Source of the DNA: an uncultured Bacilli bacterium
Lineage (GTDB): Bacteria; Bacillota_I; Bacilli_A; RF39; UBA660
Direction: 5' to 3'
Assembly (NCBI GenBank): GCA_947629025.1
Contig: CANRCC010000009.1
Span: 1-50,402, forward strand
DNA length: 50,402 nucleotides
Every line of letters begins with the position of its first letter. Position 1 is the first letter of the stretch. The notes beneath the pieces were generated by a model. That model did no database searches. It was given only the letters and a program-made list of their open reading frames with translations, and was not told the origin of the DNA. Below are positions 11,057 through 20,570 of the stretch, piece after piece. The translations under genes were made by a program, and so were the position numbers.

Positions 11057-12199
11057 ATGATTAGAACATTAAATAAAATGGATAAATTATTATTAGTTCT
11101 TACAATTTTTATGTTTATATTTGGACTATTTATGATATTTGATGCTTCAAGTATGAGATCATTTTTAGATTATGGTGTTAATACAAAGTATTTTACTAAA
11201 CAATTAGTAATATTAGGTTTATGTTTTATACTTGCAATAATAATTATGTCAACGAGATTAAGTAAATATAACTCAATAATATATGCACTAGTAATAGGTC
11301 TTTTATTTATTCTTATTGCTTTATTAGTAACAGGGGTTGCTACTAACAATTCAAAAAGTTGGTTTTATATTGGTTCATTTGGTGTTCAGCCCAGTGAATT
11401 TGCAAAGGTTATAATTATATTATTTACTGCAGTATTTTATAATATGAATATAAAAAGACTTGATAATATAGTTGTTGCAGTTACGCCTCTTTTTATAGGT
11501 GCTCTTTTCACATTTTTAACGCTTCTTCAACCAGATGGTGGAACAGGTCTTATTTTATTTGGAATAACTACATTATTATTTTATGCATCACCTGTTTCTA
11601 AAGAAATTAAAATTAAAGTTACATTTGCTGGATTAATATTTCTAGTATTAATATTAGTTTTAGTATTAATTACAGGAAAAAGTCCATTATCAAAAATGCA
11701 ACAAGGAAGATTTAATTATTTAAAACCATGTACAAGATATCAAGATGATTCAGGTTATCAGGTATGTAATGGTTATATTGCAATAAATAATGGAAAATTA
11801 TTTAGTATAGAACCTGGAAATAGTAAACAAAAATATTTATATTTACCAGAAGCACATACAGATTTTATATTTCCAATAATTGTAGAAGAGATGGGACTTA
11901 TAACTGGTATAGTAATAATAATAATATATATGATAATAATATATAGAATATTATTAATAGGAAAAAGATCTTATAGTTTACTAAACTCAATTATATGTTA
12001 TGGAGTAGCATGTTATATATTTTTACATGTAGTAATTAATTTAACAGGAATATTAGGACTTCTTCCATTAACAGGAGTACCACTTCCATTTTTAAGTTAT
12101 GGTGGTTCATTTGCTTTATCACTTACAGCTGCAATCGCACTTGTTGAAAGAGTTGCAATAGAAAATTATGATTTTAAGAAAAAAATGATACTAAGATAG
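11057..12199 (+). CDS. FtsW/RodA/SpoVE (SEDS) family protein
   Basis: FGVQPSEFAK, LPEAHTDFIF, GVPLPFLSYGGSF motifs. Confidence 0.95.
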   Translation: MIRTLNKMDKLLLVLTIFMFIFGLFMIFDASSMRSFLDYGVNTKYFTKQLVILGLCFILAIIIMSTRLSKYNSIIYALVIGLLFILIALLVTGVATNNSKSWFYIGSFGVQPSEFAKVIIILFTAVFYNMNIKRLDNIVVAVTPLFIGALFTFLTLLQPDGGTGLILFGITTLLFYASPVSKEIKIKVTFAGLIFLVLILVLVLITGKSPLSKMQQGRFNYLKPCTRYQDDSGYQVCNGYIAINNGKLFSIEPGNSKQKYLYLPEAHTDFIFPIIVEEMGLITGIVIIIIYMIIIYRILLIGKRSYSLLNSIICYGVACYIFLHVVINLTGILGLLPLTGVPLPFLSYGGSFALSLTAAIALVERVAIENYDFKKKMILR

Positions 12200-15832: not shown

Positions 15833-15891
15833 TGAAAAAATCAACTCCTTTTCCTTAACAATTTAATGTTAACATAAAAAATGTAAAATGT

Positions 15892-15905
15892 CAAACAATT
15901 GTTCG
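15892..15905. promoter_or_regulatory. LexA-box-like site at the lexA promoter
   Basis: CAAAC-AATT-GTTCG, one mismatch to CGAAC-N4-GTTCG; overlaps the lexA -35 (TTGACA, minus strand, 15889-15894) of a TTGACA-17-TAACAT promoter. Confidence 0.75.
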
Positions 15906-15913
15906 AAATATAA

Positions 15914-15942
15914 TTGACACGAATATTTGTTCGTGTTAAAAT
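15914..15942 (+). promoter_or_regulatory. promoter of the 47-aa ORF with a LexA-box-like site in the spacer
   Basis: TTGACA (15914-15919) -17- TAAAAT (15937-15942); spacer holds CGAAT-ATTT-GTTCG (15920-15933), within ACACGAA/TTCGTGT arms. Confidence 0.8.
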
Positions 15943-15967
15943 GATATCAAGAAAAGGAGTGATAGAA

Positions 15968-16111
15968 ATGAAAAAATTTATTGGTTATGGAGTTATTTAT
16001 TTAATTGGATTAGGATGCGTTGTAGGGATGATGTTAAGGGTTGATAGTTTAGATAATAAAGTAGCAAATAACAATACAATAAATAAAACAAATTATGTTT
16101 TAAATAATTAA
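15968..16111 (+). CDS. 47-aa single-TM protein, putative SOS-induced (YneA/SosA-position) small membrane protein
   Basis: AAAGGAG RBS then MKKFIGYGVIYLIGLGCVVGMMLRVDSLDNKVANNNTINKTNYVLNN; divergent from lexA behind a LexA-box-like promoter. Confidence 0.75.
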   Translation: MKKFIGYGVIYLIGLGCVVGMMLRVDSLDNKVANNNTINKTNYVLNN

Positions 16112-16198: not shown

Positions 16199-18046
16199 AT
16201 GAAGGATAGAAAAGTAATTGTTGTAATTACAATTATAATATTTATGGTAGTTTTAGGAATAGTGATATTAAATGGTGATGGAATATCAAGAGTAAAAAGA
16301 GTTTTAAAAGAAGATTATGATAGTATATATTGCATTGATGATAAATGTAGTGGAATATATGTACAAAAGAATCAAAAGAATGGTAGTCAAGTAAAGTTAC
16401 TTGATAAAAATGGAAATGTTATTGCAAAATATGATGAAAAAGGAAGTAAAGTTAAAGAACCATATTTCTTAAATAAAAATTATTTTTTAGCAAAGAAAGA
16501 AAACTCTAAAGATAATGTTACTTATTCTTTAAATAATAAAAAAGGTAAACAAATATATAAAACTAAAAATAAACTTGAATCTATAAATAATAAATTTATT
16601 CTTATGACTACACCAGCAAAGATAGGAGAAAAATATACAATACTTGATTTAAACGGAAAAGAAAAATATGGGAATATTAGTACTTATAAATCTTATTTAG
16701 ATGGAAAGTATATTTATATTGAAAGTGAAGAAAATAAATTTATACTTGATGATAAAGGTAATAAAGTTTTAGAAGATTATAAAATTGTTGAAGAAGTATC
16801 ATCTGATGATGACGATGTTTTATACTTAATAGTAAAAGATTCTAACGATTTAAACTATTATTATGATTTATCAAAAGCCAAAATAAAAGGTGAGGGATTT
16901 ACAACTTATAAGGTGAATAATGATAAATCACTTATTGTAACAAGAAAAGAAAACGATAAATTAGTTAATTATAATATAAGTTTAGATGGTAAAAAAGATG
17001 AAAAAACAACTAGTATATCAGATACTATTAAAAATATATCTAGTAAAATAGATGAAAAAAAATATTATCTATATACATTGAGCGTTGTATCTAATAATCA
17101 AAAAGAAGTATTAGTTGATAATAAAAGTGATAAATCATTTGGTATTTTAAATATTGAAACTAATGAATTTACAAGTTTATATTCTTATAGTAGTGATAAT
17201 TTCTATTCATCAATTTCTATATTAAAAAGTAGTAATAATAATAGTTATGCACAAATATCTTGTAGTTCTAATGTATGTGATAATACTAAAATGCTAGTAT
17301 TTGATCTAACAAATAGTGAAGAATTATTTGGAATAGATGGAAGTAATTTAGTAGCAACAGAGTATGTTCAATATGAAAATGGATATAAACAAGTAAGATA
17401 TTCATCTCAAACAGAAAAAGAAGAATATAAGGACAAGTACGTTTTATATGATAAAGATAATAATGAAAAAGCTATAAATGAAAATCAAATGTTAGTTATT
17501 GATTCAAATTATATTATGGGAAGTGTAGATGAAAAATCATTATTATTATATTTATCAAAAGATGATAAATTTATAAATGATGAAAAAAGTTTAGCTACTA
17601 TAATAAAAATAAATAATGAAGATTATTATAAATATGAATCAGGAAGTAACACATTTATAGTTAATAAAAATGGTAAAAAGTTATATGATATAAAAAATGA
17701 TGGAACTTTAGAATCAACTAGAAGTAATGTGTATGCGATTGGTAAAAATTCGATGAGAATATATACTATAGGTAGTGATGAAGTAAATACTTATAAATTA
17801 TTAGAAAATGAAACTTTAACTGATTCATTAAATAATAAAATTAGTCCTTTTGAAGATGTAATGTTTATAAATAATAATAAAGAAAATTATTTCAAAGTTA
17901 TAGGTAAAAAAGGAAATATAGTAAAACAAGTAAAAAATTCTCAAATAAAATCAGTTACAATAAATGAAGATATAAAAAGAGCATATATAGTTTCTCAAAA
18001 GAAGATAGACGGAAAAGTAAAATACGGATTATATATTGCAAAATAA
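16199..18046 (+). CDS. membrane-anchored extracytoplasmic protein with WG-like/beta-propeller-like repeats
   Basis: N-terminal TM; recurring short motifs such as KLLDKNGNVIAKY, TILDLNGKEKYGN, FILDDKGNKVLEDY. Confidence 0.6.
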   Translation: MKDRKVIVVITIIIFMVVLGIVILNGDGISRVKRVLKEDYDSIYCIDDKCSGIYVQKNQKNGSQVKLLDKNGNVIAKYDEKGSKVKEPYFLNKNYFLAKKENSKDNVTYSLNNKKGKQIYKTKNKLESINNKFILMTTPAKIGEKYTILDLNGKEKYGNISTYKSYLDGKYIYIESEENKFILDDKGNKVLEDYKIVEEVSSDDDDVLYLIVKDSNDLNYYYDLSKAKIKGEGFTTYKVNNDKSLIVTRKENDKLVNYNISLDGKKDEKTTSISDTIKNISSKIDEKKYYLYTLSVVSNNQKEVLVDNKSDKSFGILNIETNEFTSLYSYSSDNFYSSISILKSSNNNSYAQISCSSNVCDNTKMLVFDLTNSEELFGIDGSNLVATEYVQYENGYKQVRYSSQTEKEEYKDKYVLYDKDNNEKAINENQMLVIDSNYIMGSVDEKSLLLYLSKDDKFINDEKSLATIIKINNEDYYKYESGSNTFIVNKNGKKLYDIKNDGTLESTRSNVYAIGKNSMRIYTIGSDEVNTYKLLENETLTDSLNNKISPFEDVMFINNNKENYFKVIGKKGNIVKQVKNSQIKSVTINEDIKRAYIVSQKKIDGKVKYGLYIAK

Positions 18047-18093: not shown

Positions 18094-20085
18094 GTGGTCA
18101 TAGTGGATAATAGATCAGTAGACATTTTAAGGGGTCTTACAATTGATATTGTACAAAATGCTCATGGAGGTCATTTAGGAATTGGACTTGATGCTGCGCC
18201 AATTATGTTTACTTTATTTACAAAACATTTAAAAGTAAATCCCTCAATGCCTGATTGGGTAAATAGAGATAGGTTTGTAATGAGCGCAGGTCATGGCTCA
18301 GCGCTTTTATATGCAACTTTGTTTTTAAGTGGATATCAATTTACAATAGAAGATTTAAAAAATTATAGAAGATTAAATAGTAAAACTCCTGGACATCCAG
18401 AACTTGGAACATTTGGAGTTGATATTACAACAGGTGCATTAGGTTTAGGTTTTGCTAGTGCAGTTGGAATTGCTTTATCAGAAAAAATATATGAAGAAAA
18501 ATATAATAAAAAAGCTAAAAAATTATTTGAAAAGAAACCATTTCCACTAGTAGACTACTATACTTATGTACTTGTTTCAGATGGTGATCTTATGGAAGGT
18601 GTATCATATGAAGCAGCATCTTTTGCGGGTAATTATAATCTTGAAAAATTAATAGTTTTATATGATTCTAATAAAGTATCTATGGATGGCACTACTGATA
18701 TAACATTTAAAGAAGACGTATTACTTAGATTTTCTTCAATGGGATGGGATACATTTAATGTAAAAAATGGTAATTCTATAAAAGAAATTGATTCTGCAAT
18801 TAAAAAAGCAAAGAAATCAAGTAAGCCAAGCATAATAAAGATAAATACAACTATAGGATTTGGTTCAAAGTATCAAGGAACAAATAAAATTCATAATGGT
18901 GAATTAGAAAAAGAAGATTATGAACAACTAAGACAAAAATTAAAATTAGATGGTTTACCATTTACATTAATAAAGGAACCAGCAGAGAATATTAGAAATC
19001 AAGTTGTTACTCGTGGAATTAAAGAATATGATGCTTGGGAAAAAGTATATGCAGATTATAAAACTACTATGAATCAAGAACAAATATCTGAATTTGAAAA
19101 TATAGTATTTAATAAAGTTAATTTTGATTTAACTACATTAAATATAAATATTGATTATGATAAAAAAGAATTACTTAGAGATAGTAATAATAAAATAATG
19201 AATTTAATACCAATGGGACTTTCTAATTTTATAGGTGGAAGTGCAGATACAGTAACATCTACAAAAACATATTTAAATGATAGAAATATTTTATCTTCTA
19301 AAGATTATCTTGGAAAAAATATATGTTTTGGAGTCCGTGAGAATGCTATGGGAGCAATATTAAATGGTTTGGCATTATCTGGATTTAGACCTTTTGGTTC
19401 AACATTCTTAGCATTTAGTGATTATCTTAAACCATCTATTAGAATGAGTGCACTTATGAATTTACCAGTAACATATATATTTACTCATGATTCAATTACA
19501 GTTGGAGCAGATGGACCAACACATCAACCAGTTGAACAATTAGCGTCTCTTAGATCTATTCCAAATTTAAATGTATATAGACCTTGTGATATTAAAGAGA
19601 TAATTGGTGCATGGAATTGTATAATAAAAGATGGGAAACCTGCGGTTATATCATTAGCAAGAACAGAGGTTAAACCGCAAAAGGATTCTAATGTAAATAT
19701 GGTATCAAAAGGTGCATATATAATATCTGAACCAGATGATAGTGTAGATGCAGTTATAATCGCAACAGGAGCAGAGGTTCAAGTTGCAGTTTCAATAAAA
19801 GAAAAACTAAAAGCTGAAAATATTAATGTAAGAATAGTTAGTATGCCTTGTATGGAAAAATATGATGAACAACCTGAAAGTTATAAACAAGAATTATTTC
19901 CAGTTGGAACTAAGATATTTGTAATTGAATATGGAAGCTCTTTTGGATGGGAAAAATTTGTTTCTAGTTCTGATTATTTATTTACTGTTGATAAATTTGG
20001 TAAGAGTGCTAGTAAAGATGAAAATTTAAGTTATTTAGAGGTTAATCTAGATAATATAATTGTAAGAATTAAAAATTTACTTTAA
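18094..20085 (+). CDS. tkt: transketolase
   Basis: HGGHLGIGLDAAPIMFTLF, SDGDLMEGVSYEAASFAGN, FTHDSITVGADGPTHQPVEQLASLRSIPN. Confidence 0.97.
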   Translation: MVIVDNRSVDILRGLTIDIVQNAHGGHLGIGLDAAPIMFTLFTKHLKVNPSMPDWVNRDRFVMSAGHGSALLYATLFLSGYQFTIEDLKNYRRLNSKTPGHPELGTFGVDITTGALGLGFASAVGIALSEKIYEEKYNKKAKKLFEKKPFPLVDYYTYVLVSDGDLMEGVSYEAASFAGNYNLEKLIVLYDSNKVSMDGTTDITFKEDVLLRFSSMGWDTFNVKNGNSIKEIDSAIKKAKKSSKPSIIKINTTIGFGSKYQGTNKIHNGELEKEDYEQLRQKLKLDGLPFTLIKEPAENIRNQVVTRGIKEYDAWEKVYADYKTTMNQEQISEFENIVFNKVNFDLTTLNINIDYDKKELLRDSNNKIMNLIPMGLSNFIGGSADTVTSTKTYLNDRNILSSKDYLGKNICFGVRENAMGAILNGLALSGFRPFGSTFLAFSDYLKPSIRMSALMNLPVTYIFTHDSITVGADGPTHQPVEQLASLRSIPNLNVYRPCDIKEIIGAWNCIIKDGKPAVISLARTEVKPQKDSNVNMVSKGAYIISEPDDSVDAVIIATGAEVQVAVSIKEKLKAENINVRIVSMPCMEKYDEQPESYKQELFPVGTKIFVIEYGSSFGWEKFVSSSDYLFTVDKFGKSASKDENLSYLEVNLDNIIVRIKNLL

Positions 20086-20144: not shown

Positions 20145-20570
20145 ATGAGAACTTTTTATGTATTTAAAATAAATAATATGTTTCAAACATTTTATAATGA
20201 TAAATCAAGTATATTATTTAAGATGTTTAATGAAATATATAATTCTAAAGATGATGATCTTATAAATAATTTTAGATTATTTGAAAAGATAACAATACCA
20301 TTTAATAAAAGAATATTTAATAATTTTATAATGTTAAAACATAGAGATGATATTTATTATGATAAAAAAGAAAATAAACATTTTATTAATAGTGATAATG
20401 AAATGACAAAACTTACAGTTAATACAACACATTTAAAAATAAAGACAAATAAAAATGTAAATAGTTTTATTAAAGATATTATTGATAGTAAAGAAAATGT
20501 ATTTGTTATTGATTTTAAAAATAAGGATTATTTTTGGTTAAATCAAATTAATTATGAACCACTTGTATAA
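20145..20570 (+). CDS. sirA: SirA-like protein (sporulation inhibitor of replication family)
   Basis: N-terminal RTFYVFKINNMFQTFYNDKSSILFKMF and C-terminal FVIDFKNKDYFWLNQINYEPLV resemble remembered SirA ends; located between tkt and yneF as in B. subtilis. Confidence 0.65.
   Translation: MRTFYVFKINNMFQTFYNDKSSILFKMFNEIYNSKDDDLINNFRLFEKITIPFNKRIFNNFIMLKHRDDIYYDKKENKHFINSDNEMTKLTVNTTHLKIKTNKNVNSFIKDIIDSKENVFVIDFKNKDYFWLNQINYEPLV

Follow-up and report, generated by a model that had tools for sequence, protein, structure and literature searches.

A short LexA-controlled membrane protein gene divergent from lexA in RF39-like bacteria, a candidate minimal inhibitor of cell division

The window, i.e. 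the whole stretch of 50,402 nucleotides analysed here, carries a small ORF divergent from lexA that probably encodes, under repression by LexA as part of the SOS response, a minimal single-pass membrane protein delaying cell division. Its product is best read as doing the work of YneA and SosA in very short form, from a gene in the ancestral yneA slot; inhibition of division by this protein is likely, judged from its position, regulation and anatomy. Such a family would widen the range of checkpoint membrane proteins under LexA control by more than 100 loci in many genera of uncultured gut bacteria with small genomes, the gene being too short for family libraries to recognise. No Pfam or NCBIfam family was found for the window protein, and its relatives gave isolated weak matches only. 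A literature search returned no paper describing this small ORF in RF39-like bacteria.

The features of the locus are listed in Table 1. A first-pass annotation of this DNA had proposed a single-TM ORF divergent from lexA and two LexA-like boxes in the region between both genes, one overlapping the -35 element of lexA and the other lying wholly inside the promoter spacer of the small ORF. All of these could be read from the sequence and were confirmed. The small ORF starts 136 bp from the lexA start on the divergent strand, and the gene order in the window is lexA / small ORF - 615-aa ORF - tkt - sirA. The 615-aa ORF (16199-18046), which is membrane-anchored and situated between the small ORF and tkt, had no Pfam or NCBIfam match and was found at just one of 120 related loci. 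Two competence genes, comEA and comEC, are located near lexA as well, comEC on the side of lexA opposite the small ORF. Close to these three genes lies a SEDS (FtsW/RodA family) gene at 11057-12199, which scores under both the FtsW and the RodA equivalog cut-offs; several genus mates likewise have it on the contig that carries lexA.

Table 1. Features of the lexA region, with positions in the window.
Feature	Position	Strand	Basis or remark
47-aa single-TM ORF MKKFIGYGVIYLIGLGCVVGMMLRVDSLDNKVANNNTINKTNYVLNN	15968-16111	+	ORF call, led by AAGGAG; orthologues; dN/dS
Shine-Dalgarno AAGGAG of small ORF	15954-15959	+	8 bp before ATG 15968; read from sequence
Promoter of small ORF	15914-15942	+	TTGACA 15914-15919, spacer 17 bp, TAAAAT 15937-15942
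LexA box 2 CGAATATTTGTTCG	15920-15933	+	wholly within the 17-bp spacer of the small-ORF promoter
LexA box 1 CAAACAATTGTTCG (CGAACAATTGTTTG on minus strand)	15892-15905	-	3 bp in common with lexA -35
Promoter of lexA	15866-15894	-	-35 TTGACA 15894-15889, 17-bp spacer, -10 TAACAT 15871-15866
lexA, 203 aa	15221-15832	-	TIGR00498 227 bits (cut-off 111); Peptidase_S24 and LexA DNA-binding domain
tkt (transketolase)	18094-20085	+	conserved neighbour of lexA-yneA locus
sirA (PF10747)	20145-20570	+	conserved neighbour of lexA-yneA locus

Box 1 and box 2 are the only sites within one mismatch of CGAACN4GTTCG in the 50-kb window. At up to three mismatches 21 sites were counted, which equals the background level, so only close matches to the box are informative. 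The whole 1.12-Mb genome contains both boxes and one weak site only for the pattern CRAAYN4GTTYG, and just three sites for GAACN4GTTC; the strict LexA regulon thereby looks small in this genome. A regulon consisting of lexA and the small ORF alone was considered and is ruled out by the box AGAACAATTGTTCG upstream of the recA start in the same genome; it had been missed because the first box pattern required a pyrimidine as first base, while this site begins with A. At least five genus mates have GAACAATTGTTC before recA, the same as at recA of the window genome. Other genera of the family have exact boxes before recA, uvrA, uvrB, recG, an nrdA-like gene and a radical-SAM gene, these genes being recognised from the start of their translations. 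The box in the small-ORF promoter is common to recA and lexA, and transcriptional control of the small ORF by LexA is, from the sequence, close to certain.

At the genus level, the small ORF was found beside lexA in all seven genomes with a lexA match, the six relatives being 33-53% identical to the window protein. For a broader comparison, lexA loci were taken from two sources, the family itself and MAGs recorded under the names Bacilli, Tenericutes, Erysipelotrichaceae, Candidatus Scybalousia and Candidatus Pelethosoma (the last placed in Mycoplasmatota by NCBI), and de-duplicated to 140 distinct loci, each with at least 250 bp upstream. A search for further loci at the order level gave only the same family, and the sample consists of that family and the named MAGs. 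A single-TM ORF of 36-64 aa, led by a Shine-Dalgarno sequence and divergent from lexA, is present at 120 of the 140 loci, with its start usually 111-160 bp from that of lexA, while the same ORF test was passed by 16 of 1460 dinucleotide-shuffled regions (1.1%). At 117 of these 120 loci box 2 directly follows TTGACA inside the promoter spacer, in most cases at 28-29 bp from box 1; when the same stretch was shuffled position by position, one mismatch or less was reached in 4 of 2400 shuffles. Conservation of the ORF as a protein in relatives, which the first-pass annotation had named as a test of its proposal, was also observed. The median dN/dS over 177 close pairs is 0.28 with most values between 0.08 and 0.3, figures that are descriptive and carry no statistical test, the pairs not being independent. 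The coding sequence thus appears to be under purifying selection. No consistent terminator was found 3' of the small ORF among the relatives.

A profile HMM built from 50 members was searched against 114 genomes and gave 52 matches at E<=1e-5, all of them on the lexA contig. By comparison of coordinates by eye, 50 matches lie within about 400 bp of lexA and the remaining two, in G083 and G069, at a distance of about 1.1-1.3 kb. The genomes without a lexA match among these 114 gave none, with a profile that was built on lexA-linked copies and has limited power for unlinked divergent members.

Of the 20 loci that lack the standard ORF, three have a displaced copy, one has a truncated copy and 16 are without the ORF (about 11% of 140). 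At two loci (L033 and L067) a foreign gene is inserted between lexA and the ORF, which retains its own TTGAC(A/G)-box-TAA(G/A)AT promoter, and at a third (L051) the ORF is displaced downstream as the second gene behind a boxed 62-aa ORF. The truncated copy (L065, G043:C6:8561-12175) is a 28-aa TM-only version with both LexA boxes intact. It is followed by a terminator-like hairpin, and could be a natural minimal version or a decaying gene. Box 2 at one mismatch or less was found in just three of the 20 loci, namely L065, L051 and L046; in the last of these the second box lies close to the first near lexA, outside any small-ORF promoter. No clear second box is present in 15 of the 16 ORF-less loci, most of which have a different gene directly next. 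Taken together, the boxed promoter seems usually to move along with a displaced ORF, and where the ORF is absent the second box appears almost always to be gone too. In some genera (loci L046, L064 and L167) the divergent slot is held by an unrelated gene of about 190 aa, whose promoter spacer has no LexA box.

The first-pass annotation had compared the position of the ORF with that of yneA, and this comparison was borne out by its neighbours, its start distance and the spacer box. Bacillus velezensis records have the order lexA / yneA - recombinase (yneB) - DUF896 (ynzC) - tkt - sirA - yneF, and the order is the same in Cytobacillus, where the protein in the yneA slot is annotated as a LysM protein. 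In both, yneA starts 155 bp from the lexA start, and the yneA region contains a box at about 58-60, a second one after TTGACA and a third one past the -10 element. Among the relatives of the window genome, tkt, sirA or yneF follow the small ORF in many loci, and polA is another gene found after it. Because tkt/sirA/yneF, the divergent position and the promoter geometry are shared with Bacillus, slot and promoter are most simply read as inherited.

The likeness to YneA of Bacillus and Listeria consists of the divergent position (the yneA start being 155-160 bp from lexA), the box right after TTGACA, the N-terminal TM helix and tkt/sirA/yneF downstream. The proteins differ in size and domain content, YneA having 103-109 aa with a LysM domain and the window protein 47 aa without one, and the third box downstream of the -10 element is a feature of the YneA promoters that the small-ORF promoter does not share. 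Absence of LysM had been noted in the first-pass annotation and holds: the window protein had no Pfam matches and none of 50 members matched LysM, whereas both Bacillaceae YneA proteins did. Comparison with YneA by hhalign, whose power is low for a TM protein as short as 47 aa, gave a probability of 0.25% and one aligned column. By sequence, the small protein does not appear recognisable as YneA.

The window protein consists of a short K-rich N terminus, a TM helix at about residues 5-23 and a polar tail of about 24 aa. Among the members, the mean net charge is +2.1 for the N terminus and -0.6 for the tail, which has a median length of 23 aa, and because of this charge distribution around the TM helix the topology is probably N-in/C-out. 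An Asn-rich tail, pointed out in the first-pass annotation, is present in the window protein. This Asn-richness is for the most part peculiar to its AT-rich genome, the TM helix and the K-rich N terminus being more general. Just after the TM helix, a juxtamembrane motif R-x-E-x-[L/I/V/M]-[D/E/N] is found in 48 of 120 members against about one expected in shuffled tails. AlphaFold2 predicted a single helix over residues 2-45, with pLDDT above 90 in the TM part and down to about 51 at the end of the tail; the modelled tail is to be regarded as unreliable, and the model as uninformative on a partner.

Several SOS-induced division inhibitors are available for comparison. In Actinobacteria, ChiZ/Rv2719c and DivS are SOS-induced TM division inhibitors near lexA; both are larger than 47 aa, and ChiZ has a LysM domain. 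SosA of Staphylococcus aureus, compared here by position and layout, is likewise divergent from lexA and LysM-free with an N-terminal TM helix, and differs by its length of 77 aa against 36-64 aa. The membrane-proximal part of its extracellular tail matters, its C-terminus is linked to turnover by CtpA, and versions shortened to 47 or 37 aa (d30, d40) are inactive (PMC6851548). The TM helix of YneA binds TM7 of FtsW, and its LysM domain is required for inhibition, since YneA without peptidoglycan binding localises but fails to inhibit (PMC13396833); YneA is cleaved by CtpA (PMC6051672). SidA of Caulobacter crescentus, a 29-aa SOS-induced single-TM inhibitor that binds FtsW (PMC4211646), is similarly very small, but is proteobacterial and has no known relation to the small ORF.

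Based on these systems, the following course can be proposed. Upon DNA damage, activated RecA would cause LexA to cleave itself and quit box 2, which hides the spacer between the -35 and -10 elements. The derepressed ORF would then be expressed and its product inserted N-in/C-out, where the TM helix and the membrane-proximal tail would bind the enzyme that makes septal peptidoglycan, in all likelihood FtsW, and keep it inactive. After repair, LexA would repress the gene again, and a membrane protease of the CtpA type that reads C-termini would clear the protein. Induction, division arrest, the FtsW target and CtpA turnover are steps that we infer. Both the presumed target and the presumed protease are encoded in the genome: FtsW beside mraY (TIGR02614, 392 bits; cut-off 337.5) and a C-terminal processing peptidase with a PDZ domain (TIGR00225). 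The genome has two further SEDS genes, one of them the gene at 11057-12199.

As SosA d30/d40 and YneA without LysM are inactive, a 47-aa inhibitor must act otherwise than YneA; and as the TM helix with a short stub of SosA or YneA is insufficient, the short tail of this family must work in another way. YneA needs LysM and SosA at least part of its tail, while this family has neither LysM nor a long tail. It is quite possible, although we put it forward only tentatively, that a non-homologous or extremely eroded protein, retained in the YneA promoter slot over a large clade of gut Bacilli with reduced genomes, stops the septal synthase by its TM helix and about 20 juxtamembrane residues alone, with no peptidoglycan-binding domain. 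Such a mechanism would differ from that shown for YneA. As a candidate inhibitor of minimal size with approximately 120 naturally occurring variants, the family allows one to ask which part suffices to stop FtsW.

Other explanations of the gene were weighed against division control. That the ORF arose by chance, within a non-coding leader or between genes, might be suspected from its shortness, the AT-rich DNA and the locus that retains the promoter with 28 codons only; its recurrence far above the shuffled regions, purifying selection and the displaced copies, which retain the frame, the Shine-Dalgarno sequence and mostly the boxed promoter, refute this almost completely. A LexA-controlled membrane toxin of the TisB kind, which would depolarise the membrane and cause dormancy during SOS with no block of the divisome, is an unlikely alternative. 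Size, single TM helix and LexA control would fit it equally well, and the 28-aa TM-only version would suit a pore former. However, Rfam gave nothing significant near the gene, such as a known antitoxin RNA, and the gene is chromosomal, in one copy and fixed beside lexA over more than 100 loci, unlike the patchy distribution of toxin-antitoxin genes. The enrichment of the juxtamembrane R-x-E-x-L motif also speaks against a toxin and points to a protein partner.

Of similarly low probability, or slightly lower, is an SOS-induced regulator of another membrane process, such as DNA uptake, a transporter or a protease (CtpA/FtsH). The direct evidence, limited to regulation and topology, is compatible with it, and comEA and comEC are close by in this genome. 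On the other hand, comEC is found in none of the 120 loci in the region divergent from lexA, and in the window it stands on the opposite flank of lexA. Such a regulator is also less likely because both the yneA slot and the geometry of the promoter are common with Bacillus.

Some observations concern LexA and its boxes elsewhere. One genome of the family (G127) contains 18 exact LexA-type boxes, many of them CGAACRTAYGTTCG, far above the other members; its SOS regulon may be larger, or the boxes may be part of a repeated element. In 16 of 117 family genomes no lexA match was found, including some that are more than 90% complete and one in three contigs (G102); LexA-based SOS has possibly been lost in these, and one of them (G048) still has box-like sites. 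OR848527.1 (locus L284), deposited under the name Listeria phage LM 4-14-1, has a lexA-yneA pair and looks like a piece of bacterial chromosome within a phage collection.
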